DNA of 64,000 bases from Niastella vici (GTDB lineage Bacteria > Bacteroidota > Bacteroidia > Chitinophagales > Chitinophagaceae): positions 1 through 64,000 of the forward strand of contig NZ_LVYD01000050.1 in assembly GCF_002077945.1 (NCBI RefSeq). The letters are read 5' to 3'. The position numbers were made by a program, and so were the translations under genes. The notes beneath the pieces were generated by a model that made no database searches, was not told the origin of the DNA, and saw only the letters and a program-made list of their open reading frames with translations. Positions 10,892 to 20,630 of this stretch are shown piece after piece (the stretch's first letter is position 1; every line of letters starts with the position of its first letter).

Positions 10892-13153
10892 ATGTCTACA
10901 AGTACCATTGAAAAAGAACAAACATATATAGCCCACGGCCAAACCGTTAGGAAAACATTTCCTGTGCTCGACATGACCTGTGCCGCCTGTGCCATCAGTG
11001 TTGAGTCTATGTTAAAGTCGGCAAAAGGCGTCACCAATGCAGGCGTGAATTTTGCCAATCAAAGCGCCTGGGTTGAATACAACCCCGCCATTGCCACGCC
11101 TGCCAATTTACAGCAAACTGTGCGCTCCATTGGCTACGATCTCGTTATTGACGAAGCAAACAGCAACGAAATAAAAGAAGCCGCCCAACAGGAACATTAT
11201 AATGCGCTTAAACAACGTACCCTTTGGGCTTCCATATTATCATTACCGGTAGTACTGATCGGTATGTTCTTTATGGACCTGCCGTATGGAAATTATATCT
11301 CCATGGCACTCACCATTCCCGTTATTGGCTGGTTCGGCCGTTCTTTCTATGTAAATGCGTTTAAACAGGCCCGTCATGGCAAGGCCAATATGGATACACT
11401 GGTGGCCCTGAGTACCGGGATTGCTTTTTTATTCAGCGCCTTCAACACCATCGATCCCGGCTTCTGGCATGCGCGGGGAATTCACCCCCACGTTTATTTC
11501 GAAGCAGCCTCCGTTATTATTGCCTTTATTTCATTAGGGAAATTGCTGGAAGAAAGAGCCAAATCCAATACATCTTCAGCTATTAAAAAGTTAATGGGTC
11601 TGCAACCTAAAACGGTGCGGGTGCTTACCGGCGATAAAGAACAGGAATTACCCGTTTCGGCTGTGCTTCCCGGCCATACTATTCTTATTCGCCCCGGCGA
11701 AAAGATCCCCGTCGATGGCATCGTAACAAGCGGCGCTTCGTACGTTGATGAAAGTATGATCACCGGCGAACCGGTGCCGGTACAAAAAGAAAAAGACAGT
11801 AAAGTATTTGCCGGAACCGTAAACCAGAAAGGCAGCTTTCAATTCCTGGCGCAAAAAGTGGGGAACGATACCATGCTGGCCCATATCATCAAAATGGTGC
11901 AGGAAGCGCAGGGCAGTAAGGCGCCCGTACAAAAACTGGTTGATAAAATTGCCGGCATCTTTGTGCCGGTAGTGATCGGCATTTCCATACTCACCTTTGT
12001 GGTATGGATGCTGGCCGGTGGCAACAATGCCTTTACCAATGCACTGATCACTTCAGTAACCGTGCTGGTCATTGCCTGTCCATGTGCGTTAGGCCTTGCA
12101 ACACCTACTGCCATCATGGTAGGTATAGGTAAAGGCGCCGAAAACAATATTCTTATCAGGGATGCCGAAAGCCTGGAACTGGCTTATAAAGTAGATGCAG
12201 TTATTCTCGATAAAACCGGCACCATTACCGAAGGAAAACCGGTGGTAACACAAATGAGCTGGCTAACCGGTGCTCAAAACGACCCGGCATTGAAACAGGT
12301 GCTGTACAGCCTCGAGATCCAGTCAGAACATCCGCTGGCCGAAGCCGTTATCCATGAACTGAAAAAACAACCAGTTACCGCAGCCCCTGTGCAACAATTT
12401 GAAAGCCTTACTGCAAGGGGTGTAACCGGGTTGGTGAATGGTAAACGGTTCTATGTGGGCAATAAACAACTCATTGATGAAAATAAGCTCTCCATTGACG
12501 TCGGGTTGTTGCAGCAGGCTGCCCAATTACAACAACAGGCCAATACCGTTATCTATTTTGCCAGTCAGCAACAGGTGCTGGCCATCATCGCCATTGCCGA
12601 TAAAATAAAGCCAACCTCGGCCAAAGCCATTAAACAGTTACAGCAAATGGGTATTGAAGTGTATATGCTTACCGGCGATAATGAACAAACGGCTGCGGCC
12701 ATTGCAGCAGAAGCAGGCATTACCCATTATGGTGCCGGTATGCTTCCATCGGGCAAGGCCGGTTTTGTAAAAGAACTGCAGCAGCAACAAAAAGTAGTGG
12801 CTATGGTAGGGGATGGCATCAACGATTCGCAGGCCCTGGCCCAGGCCGATGTAAGCATTGCCATGGGCAGGGGGTCGGATATTGCGATGGACGTAGCAAA
12901 AATGACACTCATCACCAGCGACCTGCAATCGATCCCCAAAGCGCTGGTGCTTTCCCGCAAAACGGTGCGCACCATTCGGCAGAACCTGTTCTGGGCCTTT
13001 ATTTATAACCTCATTGGCATACCCCTGGCTGCCGGTGTACTGTATGCGTTCAACGGGTTCCTCCTGAACCCAATGATCGCCGGCGCGGCCATGGCCCTCA
13101 GTTCCGTATCGGTAGTGACCAATAGTTTAAGATTAAAAACAACTAAAATATAA
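10892..13153 (+). CDS. copA: Copper-translocating P1B-type ATPase
   Basis: The 753-residue protein carries one N-terminal metal-binding domain with MTCAAC (Cys30, Cys33), then the transmembrane helices of a P1B ATPase. Diagnostic elements are the TGEP actuator motif, the intramembrane CPC (about residues 396-398, [13 protein letters not shown]), the phosphorylation site DKTGT (about 440), the HP dipeptide (SEHPLAEA) and [14 protein letters not shown] plus the HP motif with a single HMA domain define Cu(I) export pumps of the inner membrane. Downstream, after 16 bases, is a CopZ-like chaperone; upstream is the HMA-AraC regulator. Together they form a copper-homeostasis module. Length and motif set are complete. 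Confidence 0.95.
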
Positions 13154-13169
13154 AATAAAAACCCATAGT

Positions 13170-13385
13170 ATGGAAACAGTAAAATTCAAAACAACGATCA
13201 AATGTGGTGGCTGTGTAGCCACTGTTACCCCGTATTTAAACGAAGCGGTGGGCGCCAACAACTGGAATGTAGATCTTCAATCACCCGATAAAGTATTAAC
13301 CGTTAATACCGGTCAGCAGGAAAAAGAAGCCGAAGTGATCAAAAAACTACAGGAAGCCGGTTACAAGGCCGAAAAGATCGGCTAA
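13170..13385 (+). CDS. Heavy-metal-associated domain protein (CopZ-like chaperone)
   Basis: A 71-residue single HMA domain, KFKTTIKCGGCVATVTPYL, with the CxxC metal site written CGGC and the usual beta-alpha-beta pattern ending EVIKKLQEAGYKAEKIG. It starts 16 bases after copA, so it is co-transcribed and presumably delivers Cu(I) to the pump. The site is CGGC rather than the MxCxxC of classical CopZ, a variant common in Bacteroidota small HMA proteins. Its role as chaperone rather than buffer is inferred. Confidence 0.88.
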   Translation: METVKFKTTIKCGGCVATVTPYLNEAVGANNWNVDLQSPDKVLTVNTGQQEKEAEVIKKLQEAGYKAEKIG

Positions 13386-13391
13386 AAGATA

Positions 13392-13484
13392 AAGGGTTTT
13401 GTGGAAAAACAGGGCTGAACGTTATTCATTAAAAAATAATTTTAGTCACATTACTGCGGTAATACTTGCTTCCACAAAACCCTT
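13392..13484. repeat. 15-bp perfect inverted repeat between the copper genes and the STM4015 operon
   Basis: AAGGGTTTTGTGGAA (13392-13406) is the exact reverse complement of TTCCACAAAACCCTT (13470-13484), separated by 63 bases that contain a smaller palindrome ATTAC-TGCG-GTAAT. It could terminate copper-operon transcription or structure the leader of the next operon, whose ATG is 21 bases on. Confidence 0.7.
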
Positions 13485-13505
13485 ACTTTTACAAAAACAA
13501 TTCCC

Positions 13506-14417
13506 ATGGTTTCAGAACACTTGCAAACCTTTCTCAACAAACCTGTCCAGGATTTTTTACCTCCCACCACTATTGATCCCGAAAAATTTGTTTACCGCCT
13601 GCGTGTCAGTTATGAAGATGAAGGCGTAACCATCACCGACCTGCTCGAAGCATTTGTACGCGATCCCCAGGTTGGTAAAGTAACAGAACTCATCATTGGC
13701 CAGTTCAATGCCGAAGTTTCTGAATCAAGCTTTGAAGTAGTTGACAAACTGGTTGCCCTGAAAAACAGTTTACCAGGCCTGAAAGCGTTGTTCATCGGCG
13801 ATATCACCTATGAAGAATGCGAGATCTCCTGGATCAATCAAACCGATATATCCCCCATATTAAAAGCATTTCCCGCCCTGGAACATTTACAGATCAGAGG
13901 CGGTTCAGATCTTTCGTTCAGCGATCTGCAACACGACCGGCTCACCACACTTATTATTGAAACCGGTGGCATGCCACCCCCGGTGGTTACCCAGGTGAAC
14001 GCCGCCCGTTTGCCCAACCTTACAAAATTGGAATTGTGGCTCGGTTCAGATGAATATGGCTTTGCTTCCACCACAGCTGATCTGGCAATGGTATTGTCAG
14101 GTTCCACCTTTCCAAAACTCACACACCTCGGCCTCATGGATAGCGTCATTCAGGATGATATCGCCATTGCCATTGCCCAGGCGCCGGTACTGAATCAATT
14201 GCAGGTGCTCGATTTGTCAAAGGGCATTCTTACTGATAAAGGCGCTGCCGCCCTGCTGAAGAGCGCAGGCATCAAAAAATTGAAACACCTCAACCTGCGC
14301 CACCACTTTATGTCGGAAGCCATGATGGAACAGTTGCGATCATTGGGCATTTCCATCAACCTTGATGACAAACAGGAAGAAGACGACGATTACCGCTATG
14401 TAGAAGTAGCCGAATAA
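13506..14417 (+). CDS. STM4015 family leucine-rich-repeat protein
   Basis: 303 residues of LRR-type repeats: LKALFIGDITYEECEISWINQ, FPALEHLQIRGG, LPNLTKLELWLGSDEYG, FPKLTHLGLMDS, LQVLDLSKGILTDKGAAALL, LKHLNLRHHFMSEAMME. The phrases GDITYEECEISWI and ETGG-(M/L)-P are, from memory, hallmarks of the STM4015 family named after a Salmonella locus. No signal peptide, so it is cytoplasmic. It is the first gene of a tightly packed operon (next ATG 7 bases after its stop) containing the STM4014, STM4013, STM4012 and STM4011 families. LRR domains recognise proteins or peptides, so a scaffold or substrate-binding role is possible. No biochemical function is established to my knowledge. Confidence 0.85.
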   Translation: MVSEHLQTFLNKPVQDFLPPTTIDPEKFVYRLRVSYEDEGVTITDLLEAFVRDPQVGKVTELIIGQFNAEVSESSFEVVDKLVALKNSLPGLKALFIGDITYEECEISWINQTDISPILKAFPALEHLQIRGGSDLSFSDLQHDRLTTLIIETGGMPPPVVTQVNAARLPNLTKLELWLGSDEYGFASTTADLAMVLSGSTFPKLTHLGLMDSVIQDDIAIAIAQAPVLNQLQVLDLSKGILTDKGAAALLKSAGIKKLKHLNLRHHFMSEAMMEQLRSLGISINLDDKQEEDDDYRYVEVAE

Positions 14418-14424
14418 ATAGCAT

Positions 14425-15528
14425 ATGCAGTTCACCATTATTGGCAATCCGGAAAACAGAAGGGTAAGGGGCTTTTGCGAAACCGCGCAACAGCTTGGAT
14501 ATGGTATGCCCACCCTCATTTCCTATGCCGGTTGGTTGAATGGCGCCGGCCGGCCCGCCATTCCTTATGGCAGTATGCTGAAGATCGATTCCCCCGGCGA
14601 AAATGAAGCCGTACGCAATATGCTCGTGGCCCGGGGAGAGGGCGAGGCATCAGCACCGGCTGAGCACGGTGAAATAAAACATATGCGTGCCTGGTATACC
14701 GGTTATGCCGGCTGGTTGCAACAAGTGCAGGCTATCATTCAGGAACAATCGCTGCGGGTTATGAACACCCCGGCCGATATCTTATTGCAATTTAATAAAC
14801 CCGCCTGTCAGGCATGGTTACAACAACAGGGCGTACCGGTGCCGTTCAGGTTACCGGCTTTTACGGGTTACGACGAACTGGTTGAACACATGCAACGGCA
14901 TGGCCTGCATAAAGTGTTCATTAAACCGGCGCATGCCTCTTCAGCATCCGGCGTTATTGCCTTCCGCAAAAGCGGTCATCGCGTACAGGCAATTACATCT
15001 GCCGAAACGGTTACCTCAGCAGCCGGTATTCAACTGTATAATTCCTTACAGGTATGCACCTATACCCGCGAACCCGAAATAGCGCAATTGATCAACCGCA
15101 TGGTTAAAGAAAACGTGTTTGCCGAAGAATGGCTGCCCAAGGCAACCCTGAACGGGCGGTACTTCGATGTACGGGTGCTCGTGATTGCAGGCCGGGCACG
15201 TCATACGGTGATCAGAACAAGCCGTCATGTCATTACCAATTTACATTTGGGCAACCGCCGCGGCGACATGAACGAATTCATCGAAATAATAGGCGCTCAT
15301 AAATTGGCGGAAATAAATCAACTGGCCGAAAAAGCAGCCGCCTGTTTTCCCGGTTCATTATACATGGGAATCGACATACTGCTGACCGCCGGTCTTAAAA
15401 AAACAGTCGTACTGGAAATAAATGCTTTTGGCGATCTGCTGCCGGGTTTGCTCCATGAAGGGGAAACGTGTTATGAAGCACAGCTCAGGGCCATGGTCAA
15501 AAAACACGAACAAGCTGCCATATGTTGA
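14425..15528 (+). CDS. STM4014 family protein with ATP-grasp-like fold
   Basis: The 367-residue product starts with FTIIGNPENRRVRGFCETAQ and later carries ATP-grasp features: FIKPAHASSASGVIAFRK (lysine and glycine-rich loop), EEWLPKATLNGRYFDVRVLVIAGR, and the metal/nucleotide segment YMGIDILLTAGLKKTVVLEINAFGDLLPGL. ATP-grasp enzymes join a carboxylate to an amine or thiol through an acyl phosphate, so this is the likely ligase of the operon. It starts 8 bases after the LRR gene's stop codon and overlaps the HAD gene by 7 bases. The STM4014 family assignment rests on motif resemblance and on operon partners; the substrate is unknown. Confidence 0.82.
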   Translation: MQFTIIGNPENRRVRGFCETAQQLGYGMPTLISYAGWLNGAGRPAIPYGSMLKIDSPGENEAVRNMLVARGEGEASAPAEHGEIKHMRAWYTGYAGWLQQVQAIIQEQSLRVMNTPADILLQFNKPACQAWLQQQGVPVPFRLPAFTGYDELVEHMQRHGLHKVFIKPAHASSASGVIAFRKSGHRVQAITSAETVTSAAGIQLYNSLQVCTYTREPEIAQLINRMVKENVFAEEWLPKATLNGRYFDVRVLVIAGRARHTVIRTSRHVITNLHLGNRRGDMNEFIEIIGAHKLAEINQLAEKAAACFPGSLYMGIDILLTAGLKKTVVLEINAFGDLLPGLLHEGETCYEAQLRAMVKKHEQAAIC

Positions 15529-16211
15529 CAACGTCTATCAATACCCTCATTTTTGACCTGGACAATACCCTTATTGACCGCAATGCCGCCATGCGCCTGG
15601 CCGTGCATGATCTGTTAAAAATATGGGGCTATCGCGACCCGCAATTAAAAACAGCCGTGAAAGAAAGTATCGCATACGACAATTGGGGTTATACCGACAG
15701 AGCTGTTTTTTGTTCCTGGTTTTTGCATACCTACGCAAAAGGTGATTTCCGGAGTAAAATGACCCCGGCGGCTTTATTGACGGCGCTGCAGGTAATGATG
15801 GCGCAAAGATTACAACCCGACCCTTCTTTAAACGGCTCATTGCATTTTTTGTCAACACAATTTCAACTCGTACTGGCATCAAACGGTGGCGGCAACATTC
15901 AACGGGCAAAGCTCTCACGGGCCGGGCTGGAACCATTCTTTCAACCGAAGGCGATCTTTATCTCCGGTGAAATGAAATACGAAAAACCCAATCCGGCGTT
16001 CTTTCAAAAGATCATAGAGCAGCTGAAACTCGATCCTTCCAGCACTATGGTAATAGGCGACAACCTCATTCACGACGTTATGGCGCCTGCGTTATGCGGT
16101 ATGCTCACCTGCTGGGTATCGCATGGCAGGGAAAACGAAGCAGGCATCAGGCCCAACAAAGTCATTAAGAATATAACGGAGATAAGCAGATGGAGCAGGC
16201 TATTGACATGA
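15522..16211 (+). CDS. HAD superfamily hydrolase embedded in the STM4011-4015 operon
   Basis: 229 residues with the four HAD motifs: I LIFDLDNTLIDR (nucleophile Asp), II VLASNGGG, III lysine in EKPNPAFFQKI, IV VIGDNLIHDVM. The cap is a short helical insertion (C1 type), as in small-molecule phosphatases. It overlaps the upstream ATP-grasp gene by 7 bases and the downstream STM4013-family gene by 4 bases (ATGA), so it is translationally coupled and belongs functionally to this operon. It probably removes a phosphate from a pathway intermediate. I do not recall it as a constant member of the STM4011-4015 set, so it may be a lineage-specific addition. Confidence 0.88.
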   Translation: MLTTSINTLIFDLDNTLIDRNAAMRLAVHDLLKIWGYRDPQLKTAVKESIAYDNWGYTDRAVFCSWFLHTYAKGDFRSKMTPAALLTALQVMMAQRLQPDPSLNGSLHFLSTQFQLVLASNGGGNIQRAKLSRAGLEPFFQPKAIFISGEMKYEKPNPAFFQKIIEQLKLDPSSTMVIGDNLIHDVMAPALCGMLTCWVSHGRENEAGIRPNKVIKNITEISRWSRLLT

Positions 16212-17008
16212 ACAGCGTAGTGAAGCACATGCATGTGCTTTTTGTTACGCTCGACAGTTTACGGTACGATGTGGCAGTTAACTTATTCAATGAAGGCCGC
16301 ACCCAACATCTTCAACAGTACAGCCCCGGTGGCTGGCAGCAATGCCATTCGCCAGGCAACTTCACCTACGCAGCGCACCATGCTTTCTTTGCCGGTTTTT
16401 TACCCACGCCGGCTACCAATGCCAAAGCGCCCCGGCTGTTCGCGGCCCGTTTTGCCGGCAGTGAAACTACAGGATCTCAAACACAGGTCTTCGATACGCC
16501 CGACATCGTTAGCGGTTTTGCTTCACTCGGCTTCCGCACCATCTGCATAGGCGGTGTGGGCTTTTTTAACAAGCAAACCGCGTTAGGGCAGGTATTACCC
16601 TCGCTTTTTACCGAAAGCTACTGGCAGCCTTCCTATGGCGTTACCGACCGCGATAGTACCCGCCATCAATTTGAACAGGCAGCACAACTGGTAAACACTG
16701 CCGGCAACCAGCAGCTGTTTATGTTCATCAATGTATCGGCCATTCATCAGCCCAACTATTTTTATTTGCCCGGTGCACAAACCGATACGTTGCAATCGCA
16801 TGGCGCGGCCCTGCAGTATGTCGACAGCCAGCTGCCCATATTGTTGGAAGCTTTCCGGCAGCAGCACCGCGACACGTTTTGCATCTTCTGTTCCGACCAT
16901 GGCACTGCCTATGGCGAGAACAATTATTACGGCCATCGCGTGGGGCATTCCACCGTATGGGAAGTACCTATGACAACTTTTATCTTGAAAAAAACTGGCA
17001 ATGGTTAA
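16208..17008 (+). CDS. STM4013/SEN3800 family hydrolase (alkaline phosphatase/sulfatase fold)
   Basis: 266 residues from the ATG at 16208, which overlaps the HAD stop as ATGA; an in-frame ATG at 16190 is less likely. The N-terminal HVLFVTLDSLRYDVAVN and C-terminal FCIFCSDHGTAYGENNYYGHRVGH are the metal-binding and catalytic ends of the alkaline phosphatase/sulfatase superfamily. A Thr/Ser nucleophile is expected in GNFTYAAHHAFFAG, where TYAAHHAFFAGFLP resembles the STM4013 signature. It lacks a signal peptide, unlike true sulfatases, so it acts in the cytoplasm, possibly as a phosphodiesterase or phosphomutase-type enzyme. It overlaps the radical SAM gene by 8 bases. The reaction is unknown. 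Confidence 0.85.
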   Translation: MNSVVKHMHVLFVTLDSLRYDVAVNLFNEGRTQHLQQYSPGGWQQCHSPGNFTYAAHHAFFAGFLPTPATNAKAPRLFAARFAGSETTGSQTQVFDTPDIVSGFASLGFRTICIGGVGFFNKQTALGQVLPSLFTESYWQPSYGVTDRDSTRHQFEQAAQLVNTAGNQQLFMFINVSAIHQPNYFYLPGAQTDTLQSHGAALQYVDSQLPILLEAFRQQHRDTFCIFCSDHGTAYGENNYYGHRVGHSTVWEVPMTTFILKKTGNG

Positions 17009-18302
17009 AACCCTTTTTAACAACATATACGAAGGGTACGCATATTCCTACCCGCACAAACACAGTTATCGCCGGTTAAACAACCTGTCGCTGCCGGAAT
17101 TATGGTCACCCGAAAAGAAAGACGCCCTCTTTCTGTATGTGCATTTGCCCTTCTGCGAAATGCGTTGTGGTTTTTGTAACCTGTTCACGATCGCGAATCC
17201 ACAGACCGACATGGTAGATGCCTACCTGCGCACCCTGGCGCGGGAAGCCAAAACGATAAAAGACCAGATCGCCCCCAAAGCATTCGCACAAATGGCAGTA
17301 GGCGGCGGCACACCCACTTTTTTACAACCACCGCAACTGGAAAAACTGTTTTCCATAATCAGGCAACTGGGGGGCGAACCCGAAAACATACCCACCTCGT
17401 TTGAATTGTCACCGGCTACGGTCACCCGCGAAAAGCTCAGGTTGTTGGTTGAGCAGGGAGTCGATAGGGTAAGCATGGGGGTGCAGAGTTTTGTGGAAAC
17501 CGAGGTAAAATCCCTGGGCCGGCCGCAAAAAAATACCGAAGTATACGCCGCACTCGATCTGCTGAAACAATATTCCTTTTCAATAGTGAATATCGACCTC
17601 ATTTATGGCGCGTATGGGCAAACGCTGTCGTCCTGGCTGCATTCGGTGCAGGAAGTCATCAGGTATGGGGTGGAAGAAGTATTTATCTACCCCCTGTATG
17701 TACGGCCGCTTACCGGCATTACAAAACTGAACCAGGAACCCGAAGACAACCGGTTTATATTTTATCGCGAAGCAAAACAGTTACTGCAATCGGCCGGCTA
17801 CCACCAGGTATCGATGCGCATGTTCCAGAAAACAGGCATTGCACAAAAAAGGCTTGCCCGCAGTTATGCCTGCCAGGAAGATGGCATGATCGGGCTGGGC
17901 GCAGGGGCCAGGTCCTATACGCAGTTGGTACATTATTCATCGGAATACGCAGTTGCCCGCCAGAATATTCGTTCCATCATTGAAAAATATATTGCCCGGC
18001 CGCATTTTAACGAAGTGGATTATGGCATTGTGCTGAACAAAGAAGAACAGCAGCGGCGCTTCGTTATTAAATCCATTCTGCATGGAACCGGTCTCGATCT
18101 GAAAAGATACCATACATTATTTGAGCAGGATGCACTGCGCGAATACCCATTGTTACCAGAACTGATCAATGCCGGTATGGCGCGGCTGCAGGGGCATGAA
18201 CTCCGGCTAACCGATATGGGCCTCGATTATTCCGACGCCATTGGGCCCGCGCTGTATTCAGCACCCATAAAACAACTGATCACTGAATTTGAATTGCAAT
18301 GA
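17001..18302 (+). CDS. STM4012 family radical SAM protein (HemN-like)
   Basis: 433 residues. HLPFCEMRCGFCNLFT supplies the CxxxCxxC that binds the 4Fe-4S cluster for S-adenosylmethionine cleavage. QMAVGGGTPTFL, ELSPATVT, GVDRVSMGVQSF and NIDLIYGAYGQT are typical of the HemN/coproporphyrinogen-oxidase-like class, and a HemN-type C-terminal domain follows (GLDLKRYHTLFEQD). HemN homologues are mostly not porphyrin enzymes but methylases, cyclopropanases or heme chaperones. The N-terminal YEGYAYSYPHKHSYR is, in my recollection, diagnostic of the STM4012 family. It is overlapped by both neighbours (8 and 4 bases), so production is stoichiometrically coupled. Substrate unknown. Confidence 0.9.
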   Translation: MVKTLFNNIYEGYAYSYPHKHSYRRLNNLSLPELWSPEKKDALFLYVHLPFCEMRCGFCNLFTIANPQTDMVDAYLRTLAREAKTIKDQIAPKAFAQMAVGGGTPTFLQPPQLEKLFSIIRQLGGEPENIPTSFELSPATVTREKLRLLVEQGVDRVSMGVQSFVETEVKSLGRPQKNTEVYAALDLLKQYSFSIVNIDLIYGAYGQTLSSWLHSVQEVIRYGVEEVFIYPLYVRPLTGITKLNQEPEDNRFIFYREAKQLLQSAGYHQVSMRMFQKTGIAQKRLARSYACQEDGMIGLGAGARSYTQLVHYSSEYAVARQNIRSIIEKYIARPHFNEVDYGIVLNKEEQQRRFVIKSILHGTGLDLKRYHTLFEQDALREYPLLPELINAGMARLQGHELRLTDMGLDYSDAIGPALYSAPIKQLITEFELQ

Positions 18303-19156
18303 CGTTGTCAATATTATACCGCGGTGTATTATCAGGCTGTAACTACGACTGCCCCTATTGTCCGTTTGCCAAGCGTAAAGATACCCGGGCCACGCTGGCT
18401 ACAGATGCGCAGCAGGTAGCCCGCTTCGTGCAATTTGTAAAACAGCAAACCAATATCGAATTCAAATTATTCTTCACGCCCTGGGGCGAAGCCCTCATTC
18501 GCAGGTATTACCAGCAGGCATTGGTTGAATTAAGTCATTGCAGCAACGTACAAAAGATCGCCATTCAAACCAACCTCTCGTGTGCCACTGGCTGGCTGCA
18601 AAAAGCCCTTAAAGAAAAAATAGCGCTCTGGTGCACGTATCATCCCGGTCAGGTTAGCCGCGAAGCATTTTTGAACAAATGCAGCGAGCTCGATGCTATG
18701 GGCGTTACCTACAGTGTAGGCATAGTGGGTTTCAAAGAAACGATCCCTGAAATTGAGACCATGCGCACGCTGTTACCCAAAGAAAGATATTTATGGGTGA
18801 ACGCGCTCAAAAAGCAGGCAGACTATTACGACAATAATGAACGGGAACGGCTGATCGCTGTTGACCCGTACGTGCCCTATAACATGGTGCATCATGAAAG
18901 CGAGGGTAAAGCCTGCCGAACGGGACATACCGTAATAAGCGTGGATGGTGAGGGCAATATTTACCGGTGTCATTTTATAAAAGAAAAGCTGGGCAATATT
19001 TACCAGCACGACCTCAATACTATTCTAAAACCCCGCGCGTGTACCAATGCCACCTGTGGCTGTCATATTGGTTATGTGCATATGGACCACCTGAATTTGT
19101 ACGAGGTGTACAATGGCCGCGAGCTGGAGCGGGTGGTGGCAGCAACCCGGCATTAA
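18299..19156 (+). CDS. STM4011 family radical SAM protein with C-terminal Cys-rich domain
   Basis: 285 residues starting LSILYRGVLSGCNYDCPYCPFAKRK, where CNYDCPYC is the CxxxCxxC radical SAM motif. The C-terminal 80 residues hold seven Cys (CRTGH, YRCHFI, ACTNATCGCHIG) in a SPASM/twitch-like arrangement that would bind an auxiliary iron-sulfur cluster, as in peptide-modifying enzymes. The ATG overlaps the stop of the preceding gene (ATGA). It is the last gene of the operon; a 421-base gap follows. Peptide modification is a reasonable guess from the auxiliary cluster, but no precursor peptide is evident nearby. Family membership is secure from the N-terminus and operon. Confidence 0.9.
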   Translation: MTLSILYRGVLSGCNYDCPYCPFAKRKDTRATLATDAQQVARFVQFVKQQTNIEFKLFFTPWGEALIRRYYQQALVELSHCSNVQKIAIQTNLSCATGWLQKALKEKIALWCTYHPGQVSREAFLNKCSELDAMGVTYSVGIVGFKETIPEIETMRTLLPKERYLWVNALKKQADYYDNNERERLIAVDPYVPYNMVHHESEGKACRTGHTVISVDGEGNIYRCHFIKEKLGNIYQHDLNTILKPRACTNATCGCHIGYVHMDHLNLYEVYNGRELERVVAATRH

Positions 19157-19577: not shown

Positions 19578-20630
19578 ATGATACAATTTGATACAGAAAA
19601 ACCAACCATCGCCCTGTTCAGGGCCCTGCAACTCGGCGATATGTTGTGCGCAGTTCCCGCCATGCGGGCCTTGCGTCACGCCTTTCCACAAGCCGATATT
19701 GCCCTGATAGGTTTACCATGGGCAAATACATTTGTGCAACGGTTCAACCATTACCTCAATCGCCATATTGCTTTCCCCGGTTATCCCGGTTTGCCCGAAC
19801 AACCATTTTCAGAGAACGGCTGGATGACATTTGTTACCACCATGCAACAGGAACAATTTGATTGCATTATACAAATGCAGGGCAATGGAACAATAGTGAA
19901 CCAAATGCTGCAGCAGTTATATGCAAAACAACTGGCCGGCTTTCACCGGTACGACTGCCAAATGGACCCACAATTTTTTTTAGAGTATCCGGAAGAAGAG
20001 CATGAAGTAATGCGGCATCTGTTATTGATGAAGCACCTGGGCGTGAAGGATGAAGGGGTACAGCTGGAATTCCCCATCACCGAACAGGAAGAAACAACTT
20101 TGCATCAGGTAGCGCCGTTTGTACATGACGAACCCTATGTATGCATTCACCCGGGATCAGGGAGCACAGCCCGTCAATGGAATCCCTGTTACTTTGCCGC
20201 ATTGGGCGATTATTGCGCCGAACATGGGTACCGCGTAGTGCTCACGGGCACGCCCGATGAAACCTGGATCACCGATTATGTAGCCAACCTCATGACACAT
20301 AAACCAGTGAACCTGGCCGGAAAAACAGGGCTGGGGGTGGTAGCGGCATTAATAAAACGAGCCCACCTGCTGATAGCTGATTGTACAGGCGTTTCCCACA
20401 TTGCTGCGGCCACGCAAACACCCAGTATCATTATAAGTATGGATGGCGAACCGCATCGCTGGGCACCAATGAACCATTCGTTGCATCATGTATTTGACTG
20501 GACAAATAACAGGTCTTTTACAGAGGTACATAATCAGCTTGTAAACCTGGTTGCCATGGATACAAAAGAAAATACATTATCAAAGTTTGCCGTTTTTCAA
20601 TCAGGGGCAATGGGTTTTATCGTTGAATAA
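19578..20630 (+). CDS. Glycosyltransferase family 9 (heptosyltransferase-like)
   Basis: 350 residues. The N-terminal LFRALQLGDMLCAVPAMRALRHAFP is the GT9 nucleotide-sugar transferase N-domain signature, and the C-domain has YVCIHPGSGSTARQWNP, VVLTGTPDE, NLAGKTGLG and LIADCTGVSHIAAATQTP, matching ADP-heptose:LPS heptosyltransferases. Such enzymes extend LPS core or related surface glycans on the cytoplasmic face of the inner membrane. It lies on the same strand as the STM4011-4015 operon but 421 bases downstream, so co-function is uncertain. The stop lies 30 bases inside the 3' end of the convergent receiver gene. Confidence 0.9.
   Translation: MIQFDTEKPTIALFRALQLGDMLCAVPAMRALRHAFPQADIALIGLPWANTFVQRFNHYLNRHIAFPGYPGLPEQPFSENGWMTFVTTMQQEQFDCIIQMQGNGTIVNQMLQQLYAKQLAGFHRYDCQMDPQFFLEYPEEEHEVMRHLLLMKHLGVKDEGVQLEFPITEQEETTLHQVAPFVHDEPYVCIHPGSGSTARQWNPCYFAALGDYCAEHGYRVVLTGTPDETWITDYVANLMTHKPVNLAGKTGLGVVAALIKRAHLLIADCTGVSHIAAATQTPSIIISMDGEPHRWAPMNHSLHHVFDWTNNRSFTEVHNQLVNLVAMDTKENTLSKFAVFQSGAMGFIVE

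Follow-up and report, generated by a model that had tools for sequence, protein, structure and literature searches.

The window analyzed here, a stretch of 64,000 nucleotides (nt) from Niastella vici (NCBI RefSeq assembly GCF_002077945.1, contig NZ_LVYD01000050.1, positions 1 to 64,000 of the forward strand), carries on its + strand at 13506-19156 six open reading frames (ORFs), exactly at the positions given by a first-pass annotation that had read them as an STM4011-STM4015 type operon. That identification stood: all five NCBIfam models were matched above their curated cut-offs within one cluster (Table 1), and the genes, referred to below also by family number, follow the order 4015-4014-HAD-4013-4012-4011, where HAD stands for a haloacid dehalogenase-like phosphatase. 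STM4015, a leucine-rich repeat (LRR) protein, ends in a glutamate that is kept almost throughout the family, and its gene lies beside that of STM4014, an ATP-grasp protein whose nearest structural relatives are the ligases ArgX and LysX. We see an even chance that the operon encodes an amino-group-carrier-like system, in which STM4014 would load the Glu tail of STM4015 and the other enzymes would act there. No paper giving the STM4011-STM4015 set a function was found in the open-access literature; two Salmonella papers contain a single mention of one member gene, as a table entry.

Four of the five gene junctions overlap and a 7-nt gap separates the LRR and ATP-grasp genes. One ATGA overlap lies at 18299-18302, and a second at 16208-16211 if STM4013 starts at 16208; this start is more likely than 16190 because position 1 of the NCBIfam profile falls on residue 7, and with it the two ATGA overlaps first counted are correct. 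For the third ORF (HAD-IA), no equivalog model reached its cut-off among the 25 NCBIfam matches listed. The host genome contained one match to the STM4011 model.

Table 1. Coordinates and assignments of the operon genes and of the STM4015 tail elements
Feature	Position	Strand	Basis or remark
STM4015 family LRR protein, 303 aa	13506..14417	+	NF038076 350.3 bits, cut-off 275; proposed carrier/substrate
Acidic linker codons, residues 287-296, ahead of tail	14364..14393	+	Sequence; variable across relatives
C-terminal heptapeptide RYVEVAE codons	14394..14414	+	Final codon GAA = Glu303, proposed anchor
STM4014 family ATP-grasp ligase, 367 aa	14425..15528	+	NF038074 375.7 bits, cut-off 175
HAD-IA phosphatase-like protein, 229 aa	15522..16211	+	PF13419 57.9 bits
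STM4013/SEN3800 alkaline-phosphatase-fold hydrolase, 272/266 aa	16190 or 16208..17008	+	NF038075 384.7 bits, cut-off 250
STM4012 family HemN-like radical SAM enzyme, 433 aa	17001..18302	+	NF006067 540.2 bits, cut-off 380
STM4011 family radical SAM enzyme, 285 aa	18299..19156	+	NF038073 389.6 bits, cut-off 200

The STM4015 tail and the adjoining ligase

A profile scan of a genome collection yielded at least 573 relatives in at least 592 matched stretches. The best 80 of the 573 relatives, 9 of 13 plasmid matches, and genome G088 constitute the 90 loci (numbered L; genomes are numbered G) to which the counts below refer, a sample heavy in Streptomyces because only the best 80 relatives were kept. 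The last residue of STM4015 was Glu in every member of an alignment of 13 family proteins and in 115 of 118 homologous ORFs from the 90 loci. The three exceptions were the first copies in two four-copy Herpetosiphon loci (L047 and L069) and an LRR ORF of L089 that, at 19 bits, is probably no STM4015 family member; this last ORF is within the 118 and outside the residue-conservation and 35-representative sets. The consensus of the tail is R-[YF]-x-x-V-x-E, with Arg at −7 in 107, Tyr or Phe at −6 in 112, and Val at −3 in 102 of the 118. Among representatives sharing less than 60% identity, 34 of 35 ended in Glu (last-column entropy 0.19 bit), the linker columns from −8 to −21 had entropies of 2.4-3.5 bits save for 1.9 at −11, and the median for body columns was 2.0; across these related sequences, then, the final residue has stayed constant behind a linker that has changed. 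Two further alignments in which the Glu was invariant (A5 and A8, the latter of 52 of 64 representatives) left out the two Herpetosiphon exceptions, and another (A7) took 36 of 36 representatives.

The ending was also kept well beyond the consensus. All 24 further family genes recovered by separate genome searches (two batches of 12) have a C-terminal Glu; endings were read for matches to the 4015 model in the loci and in 22 further places, and two pieces of L116 (32 and 33 bits), not Glu-ended, were excluded from the family count. In four planctomycete proteins that are divergent (L041, L123, L158, and L159), the ending is -GD[YMF]E and so still keeps the Glu, which is all that the L041 tail shares with the consensus (that of L123 shares Glu and Tyr at −6). 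STM4015 of Escherichia coli LF82 ends in FTE, and the E. coli and Salmonella tails likewise share only the Glu. A planctomycete metagenome-assembled genome (MAG), G398, encodes five LRR proteins on five contigs (L118 and L156-L159), all ending in Glu, together with one 4014 above the cut-off; two of the five carry a divergent -GD[FM]E ending. These proteins may be scattered partners of one ligase or the outcome of mixing in the MAG.

Enzymes of the same loci served as a control, and among them Glu was terminal in only 7 of 333 ORFs (1 of 76 for 4014, 2 of 80 for 4013, 0 of 87 for 4012, and 4 of 90 for 4011). A terminal Glu is not a general habit of LRR proteins: weak matches in four of these genomes supplied 15 other LRR ORFs, and only 1 had it (16 places were taken, at one of which the match was not covered by an ORF). 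The Glu could not be put down to gene overlap or to a ribosome-binding site, because it is kept where no ATGA is possible (96 of 99 ORFs) and where the next family gene lies at a distance above 25 nt or was not seen (21 of 23, with start sites approximate). Both codons are used for it (GAG in 84 and GAA in 31 of the 118 ORFs). When the N. vici genome was searched with a DNA pattern for the same ending in other proteins, 14 matches were obtained as compared to 28 for a reversed control, which is not above chance.

The body of STM4015 was modeled by AlphaFold2 as a confident LRR fold (mean predicted local distance difference test, pLDDT, 93.4). Its strongly conserved positions include W109, L172, G240, and G246, and its least certain block (residues 101-110, mean pLDDT 73) holds a conserved E-x-S-W-I stretch. 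The closest PDB chain, 2ra8 (Q64V53_BACFR, from Bacteroides fragilis; 34% identity, TM score 0.82 by query length), is a solved member of the STM4015 family (profile E-value 2.6e-90) and matches the profile up to its final position, a Glu, after which come eight residues that are presumably a tag. This is a structural-genomics deposit, and no paper naming it was found in the open-access literature. STM4015 bears an N-terminal WGR domain in two Bacteroidota loci (L003 and L028).

The model of STM4014 had a mean pLDDT of 93.5, and a Foldseek search with it against 350,542 PDB chains returned as its top match ArgX in complex with LysW (3vpb), followed by LysX (3vpd), LysX/ArgX with LysW-gamma-AAA (5k2m), RimK with RpsF (5zk6, within the top ten), and PsnB with its precursor (7dro). 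The top fold matches (ArgX, LysX, RimK, and PsnB) are enzymes that activate protein carboxylates. Profile searching of the PDB also placed LysX chains (1uc8, 1uc9, and 3vpd) best. Conservation in 78 sequences was complete or nearly so for K125 (77), K167 (78), D317 (78), E331 (77), and N333 (78), which we take to be the nucleotide- and Mg-binding residues. The GSWGR motif of LysX and ArgX is not present in STM4014 of the window.

Distribution, gene order, and copy number

By record title, the 90 loci belong to Actinomycetota, Bacteroidota, Chloroflexota, Planctomycetota, and Pseudomonadota, and further to Deinococcota, Bacillota, a Sandaracinaceae, an Obscuribacter, and an Abditibacterium, so that relatives extend from Bacteroidota to Streptomyces, Deinococcus, Planctomycetes, and Salmonella. 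The nearest named relative among the best 80 of 573 is Niastella populi, with 77% identity in STM4011. The prevailing order is 4015-4014-4013-4012-4011, and 4014 adjoins 4015 in all 76 loci containing both, including the rearranged L041 and L063. Tandem copies of 4015 occur in 34 of the 79 loci with that gene (two copies in 32 and four in 2, both Herpetosiphon), whereas 4014, 4012, and 4011 never occur twice in any of the 90 loci, and the sole apparent duplication of 4013 (L107) stems from a single gene split between two reading frames. When the genomes of 13 loci lacking part of the set, together with G088, were searched, a 4015 match was found in 13 of 14 and a 4014 match in 12 (above the cut-off in 9 and 11, respectively), and in several of these split genomes 4015 and 4014 form a neighboring pair on another contig, apart from 4013-4012-4011. 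In G397, no 4015 was found and the 4014 match was weak.

Of 198 sampled actinobacterial genomes, the same 5 had 4015, 4014, and 4011 above their cut-offs (hypergeometric P of 4e-10, calculated for one pair and ignoring kinship). The five proteins belong to the named STM families, and since these co-occur in many phyla as well as in those same five genomes, neither of the two objections raised by the first-pass annotation itself, that the proteins come from unrelated families or that they do not co-occur elsewhere, applies. Among 395 genomes of the same phylum as N. vici, 19 had some STM4011 match and 2 had one above the cut-off (its own and G088), a sporadic occurrence suggesting that the operon probably moves horizontally. 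Of 5426 complete E. coli genomes, 154 had a match to each of 4011, 4014, and 4015 (87 of them with coverage of at least 80% for 4014); in LF82, the usual order, plus a Cof-type HAD gene, lies between genes resembling those for sulfosugar use and typA. In a Bacteroides finegoldii plasmid (L028, 6598-6965), STM4013 is broken off early and STM4012 was not detected, with 4015, 4014, and a 4011-HAD fusion remaining. The record of Salmonella Senftenberg "plasmid 3" (L027) has typA, glnA, glnL, and glnG, which are chromosome-like genes, beside the operon; it may represent part of a chromosome or reflect an assembly problem.

Radical SAM, phosphate, and neighboring proteins

For the residue counts in this section, 4013 pieces shorter than 240 aa and 4012 pieces shorter than 400 aa were left out, and L028 and L025 were trimmed of their HAD and 4013 portions, respectively. 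The CxxxCxxC motif of STM4012, a radical S-adenosylmethionine (SAM) enzyme, was Cys at all three positions (C52, C56, and C59) in 86 of 86 sequences. Its best PDB profile match was HemN (1olt, 1.5e-58), and the radical SAM methyltransferase NocN (9p2u, 2.6e-37) was also matched; the latter leaves room for a methyl, methylene, or other carbon-radical step. Scores for STM4012 fell below the cut-offs of both HemN (TIGR00538, 156.7 versus 324.95) and HemW (TIGR00539, 161.8 versus 205.4). STM4011 has, in addition to C14/C18/C21, five C-terminal cysteines (C206, C224, C248, C253, and C255), and all eight are invariant in 91 sequences. The first-pass annotation had called this C-terminal domain SPASM-like; the five invariant cysteines and the arrangement C206-x12-G219-x4-C224 speak for that description, and the Pfam SPASM score (18.7 bits, under the cut-off of 21.5) speaks against it. 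In a PDB profile search, the sactipeptide enzyme SkfB (6efn, 7.1e-5) was on top with BtrN also near, a weak likeness. STM4011 was rejected as a sulfatase maturase, scoring 21.4 bits versus 349.45, with single-sequence PDB matches to that enzyme only at E-values of 0.06-0.07.

STM4013 matched Pfam Sulfatase (PF00884, 48.9 bits, cut-off 25), and its best PDB profile matches were an arylsulfatase (6hhm, 8.8e-7) and then a nucleotide pyrophosphatase (2gsn, 2.6e-6). The formylglycine sulfatases have a Cys (or Ser) nucleophile in CxPxR, and a Thr nucleophile fits phosphate mono- or diesterases or transferases instead. When the nucleophile position was aligned to the sulfatase motif by eye, it was occupied by Thr (T59) in 78 of 78 sequences and never by Cys, and D22, D236, H237, and H249 were each likewise present in all 78. 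The sulfatase reading was therefore rejected despite the prominence of sulfatases among the profile matches, and STM4013 belongs to the alkaline phosphatase superfamily, presumably to its Thr-nucleophile type, with Asp and His as predicted metal ligands. A HAD-IA gene lies inside the operon in only 2 of the 90 loci (L031, Niastella populi, and L032, Chitinophaga rhizophila), which makes this gene an accessory in a few relatives rather than a core component of the operon. A Cof-type HAD gene follows 4011 in Salmonella and E. coli, and in Bacteroides finegoldii 4011 carries one as a fusion. The system has acquired HAD proteins on more than one occasion, and this recurrent recruitment suggests that phosphate is removed in the pathway.

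Recurrent neighbors were a DUF6745 protein (57 of 90 loci) and a protein of about 100 aa (58 of 90), for example at L022 7894-9215, L023 1319-2644, and L024 424-2046. The former has an LRR-like N-terminus; the latter has conserved His residues and GExTGHxH, HEEH, and QREY motifs, and none of its copies that were scanned matched a Pfam or NCBIfam model. Outside Streptomyces relatives, this module was seen in Deinococcus, Methylobacterium, Nonomuraea, Nocardia, a Chloroflexota MAG, and a Gemmataceae MAG, and among the 198 actinobacterial genomes DUF6745 was present in 6, of which 4 were among the five with STM4015. The DUF6745 model found no match in the N. vici genome, a weak negative in that controls of the same search were also without matches, and members were found elsewhere. 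Clustering of neighbors gave no other family common to several non-Streptomyces loci, apart from an ABC-transporter ATPase cluster (five loci) that belongs to a large general family.

In the window itself, a perfect 15-bp inverted repeat lies upstream of STM4015 (13392-13406 and 13470-13484, 63 nt between the arms). Apart from these arms, the genome has no exact copy of the 15-mer, and Niastella populi (L031) has not retained the repeat. It is possibly a regulatory hairpin or a small insertion, and an Rfam scan of 13150-13700 gave no match near the gathering score. A glycosyltransferase family 9 (heptosyltransferase-like) gene (19578-20630) is located on the same strand ∼420 nt downstream of STM4011. 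An anti-phage defense role was rejected, as PADLOC models gave no strong match among the six proteins, the matches being partial only (PDC-M51A, 31.2 bits; pVip, 17.2 bits).

Proposed mechanism and comparison with known systems

In the amino-group-carrier-like reading, STM4015 would be a protein carrier (or substrate) presenting its C-terminal Glu on an acidic tail, with the LRR body as a docking platform. STM4014 would activate a carboxylate of this Glu with ATP and join an amino compound to it; radical chemistry by STM4012 and STM4011 may follow, on the tethered group or on the tail, and STM4013, aided in the window by the HAD phosphatase, would remove or transfer phosphate. Which carboxylate is used, the nature of the amine, and the order of these steps may vary from this outline, and the product might or might not be released. 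The first-pass annotation had offered the LRR protein either as a substrate binder or as the substrate itself, and the conserved C-terminal Glu, the adjoining ligase of ArgX/LysX-RimK fold, and the multiplication of the LRR gene alone now lend better support to the latter. In a fuller version, which we advance tentatively and hold to be possible, the LRR proteins would be reusable carriers whose Glu is amide-loaded by the LysX-like ligase and on whose tail the radical SAM and phosphate enzymes build a metabolite or cofactor; several carriers, in tandem or scattered, would share one enzyme set, and DUF6745 with its small partner would be a frequent second module.

Several observations weigh against this reading. 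The sequence match of STM4014 to LysX is modest (5e-5), and its scores lie far below the LysX (TIGR02144, 28.9 versus 275.6 bits) and RimK-family (TIGR00768, 37.7 versus 143.4 bits) cut-offs, so that by score STM4014 is neither LysX nor RimK, though its fold is nearest ArgX/LysX. D-Ala-D-Ala ligases and inositol pyrophosphate kinases are also in the fold list, at slightly weaker E-values. The samples consist of related sequences, many from Streptomyces. The 4015 gene was found without 4014 in G395, where it is broken into two frames, and in G405, a MAG, and the first copies in the two four-copy Herpetosiphon loci are without the Glu. The core operon has no peptidase for release. The tail is not predicted to be disordered; pLDDT block means of 85 (residues 291-300) and 71 (residues 301-303) are falling but not very low, and it may thus be partly ordered. 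Finally, a conserved last residue is not restricted to 4015, since complete ORFs of the DUF6745 module have one too, Asp in the small protein (57 of 57) and Thr in DUF6745 itself (54 of 57); the Glu may thus have an ordinary structural cause, or these proteins may be further clients.

Some of the same facts could be accommodated by a permanent mark of the kind made by RimK, in which STM4014 would add one or more amino acids to the LRR C-terminus, the radical SAM enzymes would finish it, and the modified, regulated LRR protein would itself be the product. The tail facts suit such a mark as well as they suit a carrier, RimK-RpsF is among the ten best structural matches, and a core operon lacking a release enzyme is what one would expect; even so, we think it unlikely, because three more core enzymes, one of them phosphohydrolase-like in fold, are more than regulation would seem to require and LysX/ArgX chains stand above RimK in the fold list. 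It is also rather improbable that the R-[YF]-x-x-V-x-E tail is the core peptide of a system like those for ribosomally synthesized and post-translationally modified peptides, in which the radical SAM enzymes, and perhaps also STM4014 acting like a graspetide ligase, would install cross-links while the LRR domain served as an outsize leader. That idea draws on the recurrence of Arg, Tyr/Phe, and Val in the tail, on the tandem copies of the would-be precursor, on SkfB being, weakly, the nearest solved relative of STM4011, and on the presence of PsnB in the STM4014 fold list. However, Glu is the sole strict position, Tyr and Phe alternate at −6, and E. coli, Salmonella, and L041 keep the Glu alone, so no fixed cross-link pair is evident, and the core set includes neither a peptidase nor an exporter.

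The LRR protein might instead be only a scaffold or sensor, its Glu a docking tag or structural feature, and the product of the enzymes a small molecule or cofactor that is never tethered. Partner binding is the usual role of LRR folds, the LRR body has strongly conserved positions of its own, and the conserved last residues of DUF6745 and its small partner point the same way; but simple docking accounts poorly for a Glu that is strictly C-terminal and has a carboxylate-ligase fold beside it, and two to four tandem scaffold genes beside single enzymes would be unusual, which leaves this explanation quite doubtful in our judgment. What the Glu ending offers is an approach to the function of the operon through the mass of the last tryptic peptide of STM4015, by which a widespread but unstudied bacterial gene set, a mystery operon, becomes testable. 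Were an adduct present, amino-group-carrier biosynthesis would be extended to large repeat proteins and radical chemistry, and an LRR protein ending in R-[YF]-x-x-V-x-E beside an ATP-grasp gene would serve as a genome-mining signature.

Parts of the operon resemble several described systems. STM4012 is like HemN and the class C methyltransferase NocN in its profile matches (1olt and 9p2u) and unlike them in lying under the HemN and HemW cut-offs. RimK, an ATP-grasp enzyme, acts at the C-terminal Glu of the protein S6 and is among the closest folds to STM4014, whose RimK-family score is nevertheless 37.7 against a required 143.4 bits and whose substrate and operon are unrelated. The graspetide ligases PsnB and MdnC, which act on carboxylates of ribosomal precursors, are also in the STM4014 fold list, but rank below LysX/ArgX, and no graspetide core motif was recognized in the STM4015 tail.

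The closest parallels are with LysW/LysX and LysW/ArgX, in which a carrier with an acidic tail and a terminal Glu is served by a ligase, the ArgX fold being the top PDB match of STM4014. According to PMC10433800, LysX couples its substrate, through the amino group, to the gamma-carboxyl of the terminal Glu in LysW, and replacing the terminal Glu of a haloarchaeal LysW homolog by Ala causes arginine auxotrophy. STM4015 differs from LysW, as described there, in being an LRR protein of about 300 aa (303 aa in the window, ending in RYVEVAE) rather than a small protein with Zn-binding Cys and an EDWGE motif (PMC10433800), and STM4014 differs from LysX/ArgX in lacking GSWGR and in having radical SAM enzymes and phosphohydrolase folds as partners. 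In the pearlins (3-thiaglutamate and 3-thiahomoleucine), as set out in PMC9303977, a carrier gains a residue at its C-terminus that subsequently undergoes modification, in one case by a radical SAM enzyme, and that paper likens the pearlins to amino-group carriers. PEARLs, however, use aminoacyl-tRNA, whereas the six window proteins had neither such a domain nor a metalloprotease by Pfam and NCBIfam. The mechanism proposed here is not categorically new but a variant of amino-group-carrier and pearlin logic, for gene families that are known by name only.

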